Assembly (NCBI RefSeq): GCF_001983935.1
Contig: NZ_CP017641.1
Coordinates: 2,728,001-2,792,000, forward strand
DNA length: 64,000 bases
Source of the DNA: Fuerstiella marisgermanici
GTDB lineage: Bacteria > Planctomycetota > Planctomycetia > Planctomycetales > Planctomycetaceae
Direction of reading: 5' to 3'
Made by a program: the position numbers and the translations under genes. The notes below the pieces were generated by a model. It was not told the origin of the DNA. It searched no databases and saw only the letters and a list, made by a program, of their open reading frames with translations. The stretch's first letter is position 1, and every line of letters starts with the position of its first letter. Shown in pieces: positions 9,365 through 20,584 of this stretch.

Positions 9365-9718
9365 CTATGACAGCAGGTCCGCAAACCAGTATGTGAACGG
9401 AGAGAATATCACACCGAAACTGAACATGATCAACCCGAAGAATCCGAGTGAAAATTCCACCAAATCCCGTGAGTCGCTTTCTTCGTTCTTCCCACGTGAC
9501 ATCCGCCAGCTCAGCACGAGGCAAAGAGTACCGGACGGCAACAGAAGTACCATGCCCAGCGAAAAGAACGTTGTTGCAGCCACTTCCAAGACAGGCGGTT
9601 CGAACAGACCTTCGAGCAATAATAATAGAAACGCCAATGCAATCATGCCTGGACTGAATGCGATCGCCAACAACTGAAAAGGGTAATCCTTCATCAGATT
9701 GAGGATCGCTCGCCTCAT
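9365..9718 (-). CDS. Small membrane protein
   Basis: A 117-residue protein with three or four hydrophobic segments (for example MIALAFLLLLLEGLF and FFSLGMVLLLPSGTL). The ATG at 9718 overlaps the TGA of the upstream permease gene in an ATGA arrangement, so translational coupling makes this start more likely than the ATG at 9736. No known domain recognised. Its place at the end of the exporter operon suggests an accessory membrane role, which is inference. Confidence 0.7.
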   Translation of the reverse strand: MRRAILNLMKDYPFQLLAIAFSPGMIALAFLLLLLEGLFEPPVLEVAATTFFSLGMVLLLPSGTLCLVLSWRMSRGKNEESDSRDLVEFSLGFFGLIMFSFGVIFSPFTYWFADLLS

Positions 9719-11910
9719 GGCTTTGGTCGCTTCCACAGAAGAATGCCCGCCACGGCCACCGGAACCGCAGCGTACAACAGCCAGGTGGTGGGCAGGTGTT
9801 GATGAGTCGACATGCCAATGCCGTAGCCGGAGAGCTGGTCTTCGTATTCGGCGATCGTCAGCATCAAGCCATTGTGCAGCACGTGCAGCAGCATGCCTGG
9901 CAACACGCTGCCCGAACGTTCTCGCACGATTCCCAAAACAATGCCCATCAGTGTGCTGGGCAGCAGGCGTTCAAACAGCAAAGCATCCTTCACGATAACG
10001 TGAAACAGGCCGAAGAGAACTCCCGTCGCTAGAATTGCCAAAGCCGCCGATGACTTACTGCGGATCGACGTCTGCAGGAAGCCTCGAAAGAAGAACTCTT
10101 CGCAAATCGCCGGAGCCGCGGCCAAGGAAAGCAGCTTCAACCACAGCGGGATCGACGCCAGGTTCAGATCAAGTTTTTCGAACAACTCCGTCAGGAACGC
10201 GATGCGGTCTTCGGTCAGCGTTCGGATCTGTAGTTCATACAGAAACGGCCACAACGACGCGCCCAGCATCAGAGCCACCAGCCACATGGGCCACTTCGGC
10301 AGTCTTAGAGCGAACCCGGTGGTCGGTCGAACCTTTGCCGCCACTGCAAACAATAACGGAACGCCAACGAACAAAAGCAGCAACACGACGGCGTTCAGTA
10401 GTAGCTGGCTGTAAAGGTTGGCGGTGATTTTTCCGGGCAGCGAGCCGATGACGATGAACAGCGAAAACAGGATCGCCAGGCACGACATCGAAACCGGCAC
10501 GGGCGCGACGACGTTGGGTTCCGTCGGTCGGCGTAGCAAGTCGTTCCACGTTCCGGCGCTGCCGTATAGAACCGCGTCGGAGCCGAAGATTCTGGCCGCC
10601 AGAGACAATGCCAGCACGCCGTACAGCGCCGTGGAAATCAGGACGATGGCAAACATCAGCAGGTTCACGTTTCCCTGCAACAAGTCGCGACCCATCAACA
10701 CGGTGTTGATCAGCGGAGTGACAGCCATCAGCCCATTCATCTTCACTTCGGGCATCAGTGCGAAAATGCCGGGGGACAGCGAAACCAACATCAGCGGCAC
10801 CAGGTACGCCTGAGCTTCCTTAAAGCTGCGAGCCACGCTGGTGATGCTCAACAGCACGGCCGAAAAGAACGCGGCGAAGACGACCATCAGCACGATGACC
10901 TGCACGATCATGGTGGCGTTAAAGCTGCCCAGCACGGTCCCTTCCAGCCCCAGCGCAAACAGTGTGGCGAACATCGAAATCAGATTCATCGACGCCGTCA
11001 ACAATGCCACCACCAGCACCGCGACAAACTTTCCGGCCAGCAAAGTCATCCGCGACACCGGCGCGGCGACCAGAATTTCCATTGTGCCTCGTTCGCGTTC
11101 GCCAGCCGTCAAGTCGATCGCGGGGTAAACGGCTCCGGTCATCGTCATTAGCACCAGCACCAGCGGGATGAAGGTGACCAGCGGCGATGGCGCCTGATAG
11201 GTGGACTTGATCGACCGCGTGCGGATGGTGGACGGACGCACGGGAGGTATTTGCCCGGCTTTGACGAGGCTTTCGAGATAGCGGCGGTTGTACGCTTCCA
11301 GCCGCTTGGTCACCGCATCGAAACACCTTTTACTAAGTGCGGAATCCGATCGTTGAATCAGTTCCCAGTCCTGAAACGGCTGCGGTTCCACGCCGCCAGT
11401 GTCTGCTTCGGGTTCAGAATTTTTCACGCGTACCGCCAGGTCTGCGAAGCCATCGGCCACGGTTTGTTCCAGCGTCAGGCCCTCTCTGTCACGCAGTGGA
11501 AAGACGCTGATTCGCAGATTGGGGTCGGTCGCAAACACGAGGGCGTTGGTCCTGCCGTCAGAGGTCGCTCGAGCCACCGCCTTGACGTCGTCTTCACTCG
11601 GCGGATTTTCGTCGGCCAAAATCTGCTCGCCCATGGCCATTGCCGTGGCGAACCGTTGAGCGTCCTCGGCAGTTTCGACGTAGATGTGGCAGTCGACCGC
11701 TTTCGCCGTCGATAGTGTGCTGAGGACTCCTTTGCTCATGACAGAACCGAGCAACGGGTAGACCAGCAGCGGCATCAGAATCAGCGTGATCACTGTTCGC
11801 CGGTCACGCAGAATTTCGCGCAGTTCTTTGCGAGCCAACCGCCATGCTCGGCCTGTGGATTCGCCCTGCTTTTCTATCGAGTTCGCACCGTCGTCGTCGG
11901 GAACGCTCAT
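9715..11910 (-). CDS. ABC-2 permease fused to CPBP intramembrane protease
   Basis: A 731-residue membrane protein. Residues about 15-420 are an ABC-2/NatB-type permease: a cytoplasmic start WRLARKELREILRDRRT, a first membrane helix, a long extracytoplasmic loop, then five helices including TAGERERGTMEILVAAPVS. The remainder, from about 480, is a CPBP (CAAX protease / bacteriocin-processing) domain with EEFFFR in ICEEFFFRGFLQ, then FGLFHVIV and LLHVLHNG, which supply the Glu and His residues of the active site. The start at 11910 overlaps the ATPase stop (ATGA). Together with the ATPase it probably forms an exporter related to NatAB; the protease may process an exported or membrane substrate. 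Similar fusions are annotated in other planctomycetes. Confidence 0.9.
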   Translation of the reverse strand: MSVPDDDGANSIEKQGESTGRAWRLARKELREILRDRRTVITLILMPLLVYPLLGSVMSKGVLSTLSTAKAVDCHIYVETAEDAQRFATAMAMGEQILADENPPSEDDVKAVARATSDGRTNALVFATDPNLRISVFPLRDREGLTLEQTVADGFADLAVRVKNSEPEADTGGVEPQPFQDWELIQRSDSALSKRCFDAVTKRLEAYNRRYLESLVKAGQIPPVRPSTIRTRSIKSTYQAPSPLVTFIPLVLVLMTMTGAVYPAIDLTAGERERGTMEILVAAPVSRMTLLAGKFVAVLVVALLTASMNLISMFATLFALGLEGTVLGSFNATMIVQVIVLMVVFAAFFSAVLLSITSVARSFKEAQAYLVPLMLVSLSPGIFALMPEVKMNGLMAVTPLINTVLMGRDLLQGNVNLLMFAIVLISTALYGVLALSLAARIFGSDAVLYGSAGTWNDLLRRPTEPNVVAPVPVSMSCLAILFSLFIVIGSLPGKITANLYSQLLLNAVVLLLLFVGVPLLFAVAAKVRPTTGFALRLPKWPMWLVALMLGASLWPFLYELQIRTLTEDRIAFLTELFEKLDLNLASIPLWLKLLSLAAAPAICEEFFFRGFLQTSIRSKSSAALAILATGVLFGLFHVIVKDALLFERLLPSTLMGIVLGIVRERSGSVLPGMLLHVLHNGLMLTIAEYEDQLSGYGIGMSTHQHLPTTWLLYAAVPVAVAGILLWKRPKP

Positions 11911-12674
11911 GACGCGGTGCCTTCGCTGGCTGGTTCGTTTAGCAATTGCAGAAACATATCGGTCAACGTAGCGGCGCCGGTTTCCTGTTGCAGTTCCGCT
12001 AACGTGCCGCAATGCAGTAACGCTCCGTTGTGCAGCAATCCGAAGCGGTCGGCAAAGCGTTCTGCTTCGTCAAGGCGATGAGTGCAAATAATCACAGCTT
12101 TACCTTCGCCGCGCAAATGTTGGATGAAGTCGAACACGACCTGGCTGCCGACAATGTCCAGGCCGCGAGTCGGTTCGTCCAGTAACATCACGGGCGGATC
12201 ATGCATCAATGCACGAGCCAGGTTGACTCGCTGTTTCTGCCCGGTACTCAACACGCCGCAACGCCGGTGGATGTAGGACTTCATGTCCAGCAATTCCGTC
12301 AACTTGCGGATGCGCTGTTCAACAGTGTCAGGCGGCACGTCATACAAATCGCCCACAAAGGAAAGCATCTCGCGCGGCGACAGCCATTGGTAGACGCCGA
12401 CGCTGGTTGACACGAAGCCGACGCGGCGTTTGATTTGATCCGGATGAGCGGCCACGGAAACGCCGTCGATCGTGGAATCGCCGGCGGACGGCTGCATCAG
12501 GCCCAGCATCATCCTAAGAGTCGTTGTCTTACCCGCCCCATTGGGACCCAGAAGTCCGAACACTTCGCTGCGAGCGACTTCGAACGACACGTCGTTGACC
12601 GCTGCCACGGGGACGCCGTCAGATGCGGGAAACGCTTTGGAAAGATGTGAAACGCGAATCAAAGGCCCGCTCAC
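11907..12674 (-). CDS. ABC transporter ATP-binding protein, NatA-like
   Basis: A 255-residue cytoplasmic ATPase. Walker A is GPNGAGKTTT, the signature is LSTGQKQRV, Walker B is VMLLDEPTRGLD and the switch His is in ICTHRLDEAE. The order of motifs and length are normal. It is the first gene of a three-gene minus-strand operon in which each start overlaps the preceding stop by four bases (genes at 11910 and 9718). It should energise the permease-CPBP protein encoded next. The exported substrate is unknown; the NatA resemblance (sodium export) is family-level only. Confidence 0.93.
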   Translation of the reverse strand: MSGPLIRVSHLSKAFPASDGVPVAAVNDVSFEVARSEVFGLLGPNGAGKTTTLRMMLGLMQPSAGDSTIDGVSVAAHPDQIKRRVGFVSTSVGVYQWLSPREMLSFVGDLYDVPPDTVEQRIRKLTELLDMKSYIHRRCGVLSTGQKQRVNLARALMHDPPVMLLDEPTRGLDIVGSQVVFDFIQHLRGEGKAVIICTHRLDEAERFADRFGLLHNGALLHCGTLAELQQETGAATLTDMFLQLLNEPASEGTAS

Positions 12675-17218: not shown

Positions 17219-18976
17219 GTGGACGAAAATCAGCGAGAAGACATTTTTCGCCGTTGCGAAGAAGCGATCGGTTATCAGTTTAAGGATCGCGATGTCCTGC
17301 GTCGCGGTTTGACTCACAGTTCGTGCGCGACGTCTCGCCTGGACTGCAACGAACGCATGGAATTCCTCGGCGACGCTGTGCTGGGGCTGGTCGTTTGTGA
17401 ATTCCTGTATCTCAAATATCCCGATCGTCGTGAAGGGCAGCTCACGCAACAAAAGTCGCACCTTGTCAGCCGCACCGTTTGCACGCAAGTCGGCAATCGG
17501 CTTGGCTTGAAGGACCTGATTCTGGTTGGAAAGGGCCTGCAGACGATCCCCGATTCGTTGATTGCCGCCGGAGTGGAATCGCTGGTGGCGGCCATATATC
17601 TGGACGGTGGATTCGCGGCGGCGGTCGATTTTATTATGCGAGTCTTCGAGGAAGAACTGCAGAACACCGACGAGGCCGACCAGGAAAACTACAAAAGCAT
17701 CCTGCAGGAAGAAACTCAGCGTGACGGCAGCGATCCGCCCAGCTATGTGGTGATCGAACACCGCGGCCCCGATCATGCTCGGGAGTTTTGTGTGGCCGTT
17801 GAAATTGCAGAAACTCAATTCGAATCCGCGTGGGGCCGCAGCAAAAAAGAAGCCGAACAAAAGGCGGCCATGCACGCTCTTGAAGGAATTTCGCTGGACG
17901 GTGGATCGACCACCACAACAGCTTCGAAACCAGACTCACAAGGAAACACAGACGTGCCCGAATCGAACTCCGACAGCTCAAACCCGCCGACCAATCAGTC
18001 CACGACTTCGACGCAGGCTAACGTACCGACGACGGAATGCCGCGTTCTGTTTCAGCCGCCGACGGACGAGCTTCGTTTTTTACCTGAAGGCCCTTATTCG
18101 CTGCCGAATGGCAACATCAGCTGGGTGGGAATTCAACACGGCAGCAATTCTACGGTCGGTTCGCTGAACATTCTTGATCCGGCCTCCGGCACGAACCAGT
18201 CCTTCAACCTGCCGGGCCGACCGGGGTTCGCATTCCCCACGACGAAGCAGAACGTATTCGTGTGCGGCGTTGAGCGGTCGCTGGGGCTGTATGATGTCAG
18301 CGATGGTTCGTGGACGGAAATCCTGAGCGGCATCGACAGTGACGTCGACAACACGATCATCAACGACGGTGTCGTGTTCGACGACAACCTCATCTTCGGC
18401 TGCAAAGAACTGGAATTCAAAACGAAGAAGGCAGGCCTGTATTTGTGGCGCGGCCGCGACAAAAAACTGTTCCAGCTTAGAAACGATCAGATCTGTTCAA
18501 ATGGCAAAGCGGTCATCAGGAACCCCGACCAAACATTGACGCTGGTCGACATTGATTCGCCGTCAAAGACAATCACCAAGTGCTGGCTGGAAGTCGCCGT
18601 CGGCACCGTGGGCAAGCCGGAAGTCATTGTCGATTTGTCGTCTGAAGACGTGTTCCCGGACGGCATGATCGTGACGCCGGACGGAAAAAGTCTGATCGTG
18701 GCGTTGTACGATCCAGGCGATCCAGCCTACGGAATGGCGCGTCAATACGGCATCGAATCGGGCGAACTGGAAGCTGTCTGGACGTGTCCGGGTTCGCCGC
18801 GAGTCACGTGCCCACAGCTTGTGAAGGTCGATGGTCGAGTGCATTTGCTGCTGACAACGGCCGTCGAACACATGGACGCCGAACAGCAGTCGCGGCATCC
18901 GAACGCGGGCTCGCTTTTCCTTGGCGAAGCATTGCTGGGGGCGTTGGGCGAACAGCCGTTGTTTCCCGTGGGGTAA
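17219..18976 (+). CDS. rnc: Ribonuclease III fused to an SMP-30/gluconolactonase-like beta-propeller
   Basis: A 585-residue protein from a GTG start. Residues 1-150 are the RNase III domain: LTHSSCA, the signature ERMEFLGDAVLGL and the second catalytic Glu in VESLVAAIYLDGG. Residues about 157-225 are the dsRNA-binding domain (NYKSILQEETQR to KKEAEQKAAMHAL). A Ser/Thr/Asn-rich linker (about 226-270) follows, then about 300 residues resembling SMP-30/regucalcin: GPYSLPNGNISWVG, DDNLIFGCKELEF, VFPDGMIVTPDGKSLIVAL, and LLLTTAVEHMDAEQQ followed by PNAGSLF. The first part should cut double-stranded RNA (rRNA and mRNA processing). The role of the propeller on a cytoplasmic nuclease is unknown. No stop codon separates the halves; a GTG at 17954 with AAGGAA eight bases upstream could also start the propeller alone. 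Confidence 0.9.
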   Translation: MDENQREDIFRRCEEAIGYQFKDRDVLRRGLTHSSCATSRLDCNERMEFLGDAVLGLVVCEFLYLKYPDRREGQLTQQKSHLVSRTVCTQVGNRLGLKDLILVGKGLQTIPDSLIAAGVESLVAAIYLDGGFAAAVDFIMRVFEEELQNTDEADQENYKSILQEETQRDGSDPPSYVVIEHRGPDHAREFCVAVEIAETQFESAWGRSKKEAEQKAAMHALEGISLDGGSTTTTASKPDSQGNTDVPESNSDSSNPPTNQSTTSTQANVPTTECRVLFQPPTDELRFLPEGPYSLPNGNISWVGIQHGSNSTVGSLNILDPASGTNQSFNLPGRPGFAFPTTKQNVFVCGVERSLGLYDVSDGSWTEILSGIDSDVDNTIINDGVVFDDNLIFGCKELEFKTKKAGLYLWRGRDKKLFQLRNDQICSNGKAVIRNPDQTLTLVDIDSPSKTITKCWLEVAVGTVGKPEVIVDLSSEDVFPDGMIVTPDGKSLIVALYDPGDPAYGMARQYGIESGELEAVWTCPGSPRVTCPQLVKVDGRVHLLLTTAVEHMDAEQQSRHPNAGSLFLGEALLGALGEQPLFPVG

Positions 18977-20164: not shown

Positions 20165-20584
20165 ATGATCATCGGACTTGGTACGGATATTGTTGAGATT
20201 GATCGTATTCGCGACATGATCGACCGTCACGGCGACAATTTTTTGCAGCGCTGTTTTACAACGCCTGAGATTGCCTACGCGGACAAGCACCGCGACGCAG
20301 CGGTTCGCTTTGCCGGTCGCTGGGCAGCCAAAGAAGCGGTCGTCAAAGTTTTAGGAACCGGCTTTGTGAAGGGAATCACGTTCCACGATATCCAGGTCCT
20401 GCCGCTGGATTCCGGCCAGCCACGAATCGAACTCTCCGGCGGCGCTGCACAGATCGCAGCCAGCATGAGCATCGGTTCTGTGCTGATCACGATTTCTCAT
20501 GCCAAATTATACGCCACCGCGACGGCCGTAGGGGTCGGTCGGGAGATAAATTTTGGCGACAATTCAGCCGCTGCCGACGGTTAA
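20165..20584 (+). CDS. acpS: Holo-[acyl-carrier-protein] synthase
   Basis: A 139-residue AcpS-type phosphopantetheinyl transferase that moves 4'-phosphopantetheine from CoA to the serine of acyl carrier protein for lipid synthesis. The two Mg-binding motifs are present: GLGTDIVEIDRI at the N-terminus and RWAAKEAVVKVLGTG in the middle; a late SVLITISHAKLYATATAV strand completes the fold. The start at 20165 begins exactly at the conserved MIIGLGTDI; the longer reading from 20003 crosses the REP-like element. Slightly longer than the typical 120-130 residues. Confidence 0.94.
   Translation: MIIGLGTDIVEIDRIRDMIDRHGDNFLQRCFTTPEIAYADKHRDAAVRFAGRWAAKEAVVKVLGTGFVKGITFHDIQVLPLDSGQPRIELSGGAAQIAASMSIGSVLITISHAKLYATATAVGVGREINFGDNSAAADG

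Follow-up and report, generated by a model that had tools for sequence, protein, structure and literature searches.

An RNase III fused to an SMP-30/gluconolactonase-like propeller in Fuerstiella marisgermanici, and its apparent recurrence in related Planctomycetaceae

RNase III is a housekeeping enzyme that dimerises throughout its family. In Escherichia coli, its gene (rnc) shares an operon with era, and acpS is part of the same operon. The locus described here resembles the E. coli rnc operon in having a gene behind rnc that is able to share its mRNA. The partner differs, however, being era in E. coli and, here, a lactonase-like protein that becomes fused to the nuclease. On the other side of the comparison stands the SMP-30/gluconolactonase/regucalcin family (PF08450), whose nearest solved members are 7plb and 7plc from Caulobacter crescentus and 2ghs from Agrobacterium.

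We analyzed a 64,000-nucleotide stretch of the F. marisgermanici genome (hereafter, the window) in which the original prediction had noticed a complete RNase III, with its double-stranded RNA-binding domain (dsRBD), running on into such a propeller, and had named no described link between the two families. The first point was borne out by one stop-free frame on which Pfam and TIGR02191 agree. As to the second, our literature search of open-licence papers found no description of an RNase III fused to a gluconolactonase/SMP-30 protein. Both domains are of known kinds; the fusion and its recurrence appear to be new.

One reading frame with two enzyme-like domains

The open reading frame at 17219-18976 (+) encodes 585 residues from a GTG start to a TAA stop codon (18974-18976, +), with zero internal stops. 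We confirmed that this single frame comprises an RNase III, a linker and an SMP-30/gluconolactonase propeller. The RNase III part (17219-17890, +; residues 1-224) contains the catalytic domain at residues 24-142 (Ribonucleas_3_3, 1.2e-24) and the dsRBD at residues 158-222 (dsrm, 8.5e-17), both above the curated Pfam cut-offs, and matches the NCBIfam RNase III equivalog TIGR02191 at 5.6e-61 (205.9 bits against a cut-off of 166.25). A Ser/Thr-rich linker (17891-18025, +; residues 225-269) leads into the propeller (18026-18973, +; residues 270-585), in which Pfam places SGL (PF08450) at residues 288-548 (1.8e-29; 103.5 bits against a cut-off of 26.3). All of the families that the original prediction had expected were found, with PF14622, PF00636 and PF00035 likewise exceeding their cut-offs. 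No second match to the fused protein was present in the genome (one contig of 8,920,478 bases) at E <= 0.001.

The window protein shares with bacterial class I RNase III (TIGR02191) the catalytic domain, the dsRBD, a score well above the cut-off and five of the six acidic positions; it differs by the C-terminal lactonase-type propeller and by an alanine at the position of E. coli D114. E45, E48, D52, E72 and E120 correspond to E. coli E38, E41, D45, E65 and E117 and are kept in all 148 distinct sequences, the window included. The D114 position is A117 in the window (17567-17569). Across the same 148 distinct, mainly planctomycete sequences, it is Ala in 72, Asp in 39, Gly in 25, Asn in 8, Thr in 2 and Cys in 2, and is thus non-acidic in 109. 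Because a non-acidic residue is so common there, A117 was not treated as excluding the protein from RNase III. According to PMC8708148, the E. coli D114A variant is weakly active in vitro.

Five propeller residues, E290, R334, N382, N428 and D481, do not vary across the 50 sequences aligned. A profile alignment to solved members matched N428 and D481 to SMP30 Asn154 and Asp204, and N382 (through the xylonolactonase) to Asn103; E290 was matched to Glu18 by motif. SMP30 is described as binding its metal through Glu18, Asn154 and Asp204, with Asn103 in the pocket (PMC3551927). From these correspondences, E290, N428 and D481 are likely metal ligands and N382 is likely a pocket residue. SMP30 Arg101 is not kept, the window propeller having Ile at this position by motif reading. 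The fold is shared with 7plb/7plc and 2ghs (TM-score by target 0.86-0.88), but the window propeller is only ~23-24% identical to them and, in contrast to the solved members of the family, is attached to a nuclease. We take the propeller as cytosolic because its stand-alone relatives have no obvious signal peptide by eye. Since both active sites are retained, apart from the RNase III metal-site acid replaced by A117, both activities look possible, which favors a bifunctional protein over a dead scaffold.

An AlphaFold2 model of the protein (alignment of 12 sequences; mean pLDDT 83, pTM 0.54) consists of two confident modules joined by a linker with pLDDT under 50 at residues 228-266. The propeller region, for which the original prediction had proposed such modeling, forms one of these modules, and Foldseek matched it best, among solved structures, to the Caulobacter xylonolactonase 7plc (TM-score by target 0.88). 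The best solved match of the front part was E. coli RNase III 7r97. Because the linker is predicted to be disordered and the pTM is only 0.54, the model supports no fixed contact between the domains.

Fused, adjacent and unlinked genes in the family

The window fusion was seen in one genome of its species. In the same-genus relatives examined first, rnc stops shortly past the dsRBD and the propeller gene begins at its own ATG ~5 to 200 nt further on. A fusion unique to the window species, as these unfused relatives suggested, was overturned by a survey of 170 genomes of the family, which detected the propeller in 53 (E <= 1e-60) and RNase III in 160 (E <= 1e-30). In the 29 genomes that were classified (genera g1, g53, g300 and g318), the two genes are fused in one stop-free frame in 9 (the window, G516, G509, G519, G512, G518, G513, G505 and G515), adjacent but separated by a stop or frame change in 11 (G005, G007, G002, G386, G487, G488, G507, G511, G510, G514 and G506) and unlinked in 9, lying on different contigs in G003, G004, G006, G508, G520, G504, G517 and G440 and ~130 kb apart in G442. 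Linkage is therefore not required. This count omits G001, G012 and G439 (neither of the latter two gave an rnc match), G441 (lactonase absent at the cut-off) and G503 (without a listed match for either gene). In G001, rnc and the lactonase gene are on different contigs; the DNA upstream of the lactonase matches the rnc-lactonase spacer of G002 over 171 nt at 70%, and the rnc side has no match to that spacer.

The eight fusions outside the window all belong to the sister genus g318, and RNase III, dsRBD and SGL were confirmed by Pfam in 8 of 8. The survey of rnc genes that the original prediction had suggested for Planctomycetota thus recovered, at the level of the family, the same architecture in eight further genomes. 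The same prediction had reasoned that relatives with two separate genes would speak against the fusion. Such relatives do exist (11 of 29), but because eight other relatives are fused too, we regard the separate genes as the origin of the fusion and not as its refutation. The fused gene of G519 is cut by a contig end inside the propeller, so that a survey of RNase III tails requiring a stop codon gives eight fusions instead of nine. Outside g1, g53, g300, g318 and G012, the propeller occurs in 21 genomes, and in the 19 of these with RNase III among the matches listed, the two genes are on different contigs. When 392 genomes were drawn from across the phylum, the matches listed placed the whole query at a single site only in the window and in G386, where stops lie between the genes. 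A phage origin was rejected: not one of 12 matching phage records spans 80% of the query, and the best 5 of the 12 align to the RNase III part only.

We built trees of the RNase III part, of the propeller and of the joined domains, counting once those contigs that, judging by length and place, occur in two collections (L031/L111, L032/L243, L033/L249 and L034/L115). On all three, the most parsimonious history contains 4 changes of the fused label, with gains and losses counted alike, and the starred branches of the joined-domain tree force at least 3 changes. A single clade of all nine fused genomes is rejected (AU p 1.3e-5), as is one of the eight fused g318 genomes (AU p 0.0012). On these trees, the fusion seems to have arisen repeatedly, about four times, within one family. 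G514, whose genes are separate, groups next to G516 and G509 and might have arisen by the splitting of an earlier fusion.

The gene upstream of the pair varies. In ten genomes from three genera (loci L113, L112, L111, L153, L248, L249, L119, L121, L250 and L253), a gene for an HtrA-like protease (trypsin-like and PDZ domains) is found upstream of rnc in divergent orientation, whether or not the propeller gene is present: six have adjacent genes (g1 and g53) and four have unlinked genes (G003, G006, G440 and G442). The protease gene gives way to an M24 peptidase gene (methionine-aminopeptidase-like) in nine g318 genomes, of which five are fused and four are adjacent. Neither gene was found upstream in the window, G506, G512 and others, the flanking DNA being short for some of these. 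The rnc-propeller pair therefore outlives changes of its upstream gene. The pair is nevertheless breakable, and the order of protease and rnc lasts about as well. Scanning the upstream ORF against PHROGs gave no match. An RNase III self-cleavage hairpin upstream of rnc was considered and discarded, as the folding of the leader does not stand out from that of its shuffles (z -0.91). About 1.2 kb beyond the fused gene, on its downstream side, acpS is found at 20168-20584 (+), with an RF-1-domain gene between them on the opposite strand.

In unfused relatives, the tail measured from residue 221 is 6-80 aa long, and among 147 distinct RNase III genes, the sole long tail besides the propeller fusions is that of L168 (370 aa). 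In this survey, RNase III is joined to another recognized domain only in the propeller fusions. The L168 extension is arginine-rich at its start and has no Pfam domain besides RNase III and the dsRBD. The tails and linkers of g318 (e.g., L229, L238, L233 and L234) carry, by eye, a short motif such as PES.TDGRDV.L or LPE..GDIRLRL, which is also present where the propeller gene is separate (G514).

The linker as a likely coding sequence

The linker was described in the original prediction as Ser/Thr-rich, and residues 224-270 are indeed 40% Ser+Thr. Of 5000 base shuffles of the corresponding DNA, 3923 contained a stop; among the remaining 1077, not one reached the Ser/Thr content or the hydrophilicity of the real sequence. 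The published description of the F. marisgermanici NH11 genome gives one chromosome of 8.9 Mb, built from PacBio reads and corrected with Illumina data, and states a finishing quality of QV 60 (PMC5177795). Together with the substitution ratios (dN/dS) of relatives' linkers given below, the shuffle test and this correction make a sequencing error hiding a stop near 17880-18000, against which the original prediction had cautioned, very unlikely.

In the linkers of the three other fused groups, each taken with a few flanking codons, dN/dS was 0.27-0.44 in six pairs: 0.27 for G516/G509, 0.33-0.44 for the three pairs of G519, G512 and G518, 0.28 for G505/G515 and 0.38 for G513/G515. When only the 30 codons immediately preceding the propeller were taken, five close fused pairs had ratios of 0.29-0.62, with few changes (1 to 5.5 silent), compared with 0.82-1.81 for five pairs of unfused spacers; taken whole, with the coding tail of rnc included, the unfused spacers gave 0.51-0.94. 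Whole-linker indels in the five close fused pairs are multiples of three (9, 3, 3 or none), whereas every unfused spacer pair contains an indel of some other length. For the divergent pairs G513/G515 and G513/G505, the ratios over the last 30 codons were 1.12 and 0.50, in poor alignments with indels that are not multiples of three, and the whole linker of G513/G505 does not favor the coding frame (0.79 against 0.67 in another frame). On these small counts, the linkers of the three other fused groups favor silent in-frame changes more than the unfused spacers do.

An ATG within 10 codons of the usual start point of the propeller gene is kept in 22 of 22 unfused genes examined, whereas 7 of 9 fused genes have some other codon where the lactonase ATG usually stands. 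A nearby in-frame ATG, no more than 13 codons from the propeller, occurs in 7 of the 9 fused genes and is absent from the window and G513. The sole in-frame start codon found in the window linker is a GTG at 17954-17956 (+), 9 nt after AAGGA. The sequence upstream of it matches the 16S tail modestly, and because 47 of 386 internal GTGs in long ORFs of the window match equally well or better, it is a weak start candidate. A shorter propeller product from this codon is possible, as is one from the nearby ATG in the seven fused genes that have it. No internal sigma-70-type promoter was found in the linker, and the propeller region has two weak matches against 0.9 expected.

Explanations for the fusion

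Overall, we consider it fairly probable that an inherited rnc-lactonase gene pair has been repeatedly fused into a bifunctional two-enzyme protein. The ancestor of this group of Planctomycetaceae would have carried an SMP-30-type lactonase gene, probably cytosolic in its product, directly behind rnc, as the gene order in three genera suggests. In several lineages, the rnc stop would then have been lost, and the former spacer, now coding, would have come to link RNase III to the lactonase; nine genomes have the open frame, and the trees point to about four such events. Because RNase III dimerises, the fused product should be a dimer, presumably with two propellers on flexible tethers. Judging from the retained active sites, the RNase part would carry out its usual processing of rRNA and other dsRNA, and the propeller would use a divalent metal of its own to hydrolyze a sugar-type lactone. 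In all probability, these activities are independent of each other and share their expression. Most likely, the fusion fixes common expression and a ratio of the two enzymes rather than making a new activity, and this is the likeliest gain; direct control of the nuclease by the propeller is possible. The unlinked genes of nine genomes and the metal-site acid missing at A117 speak against this overall explanation.

A serious rival, although we think it unlikely, is that functionally unrelated neighbors fused neutrally, as one of the two readings in the original prediction had it; RNase III would tolerate C-terminal tails, so that the loss of the stop led to a fusion that brings no benefit. The tails of unfused relatives are free in length, the genes are unlinked in nine genomes, and no common pathway is evident. 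A pathway drawn from the neighbors of unlinked lactonases was set aside, as even the most frequent neighbor family is present at no more than 5 of 29 such loci (ORFs overlapping rnc or the propeller gene being omitted). The divergent protease-rnc neighborhood, moreover, is conserved as well, without co-transcription. However, neutrality has to account for about four separate fusions, for a gene pair that survives upstream-gene changes and for linkers that favor silent changes. By a crude count, a co-directional ORF lies within 300 nt downstream of 58 of the 131 RNase III genes with enough DNA, 41 of them outside the clade, yet none of these 41 is fused to a recognized domain, and the sole other long tail lacks a further Pfam domain. 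Because the fusion recurs, pure chance is less likely.

More speculatively, convergent fusion might reflect selection for physical coupling, with a metabolite- or metal-responsive propeller adjusting the activity, location or partners of RNase III. We find this quite doubtful; if true, it would tie sugar-acid metabolism to RNA processing. More doubtful still is a propeller that, close to the other reading in the original prediction, serves as a sensing or targeting module, binding metal, a sugar lactone or a partner and altering where or when RNase III cuts. Repeated fusion, the long-kept gene pair and the conserved metal and pocket residues are consistent with such a module. The retained catalytic residues, however, fit plain enzyme activity equally well, the genes are apart in many relatives, and the disordered linker and low pTM also argue against it. 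Finally, an assembly or sequencing artefact, or two products made through GTG 17954 or a linker frame error, is highly improbable: in its favor is a single candidate internal start whose ribosome-site match is modest, and against it stand the Illumina-corrected sequence at its published QV 60, a Ser/Thr-rich linker that keeps to one frame before and after the GTG, and the fused frame in eight other genomes.

Since fused, adjacent and unlinked states coexist in close relatives, they form a natural experiment whose members are directly comparable. The fusion points either to an unforeseen connection of RNA processing with sugar-acid chemistry or to a clean case of repeated gene fusion from co-expression alone. 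Elsewhere in the window, we observed a second fused gene at 9715-12012 (-), which joins an ABC-2 permease to a CAAX-type (Rce1-like) protease and overlaps an ABC ATPase gene at 11907-12674.
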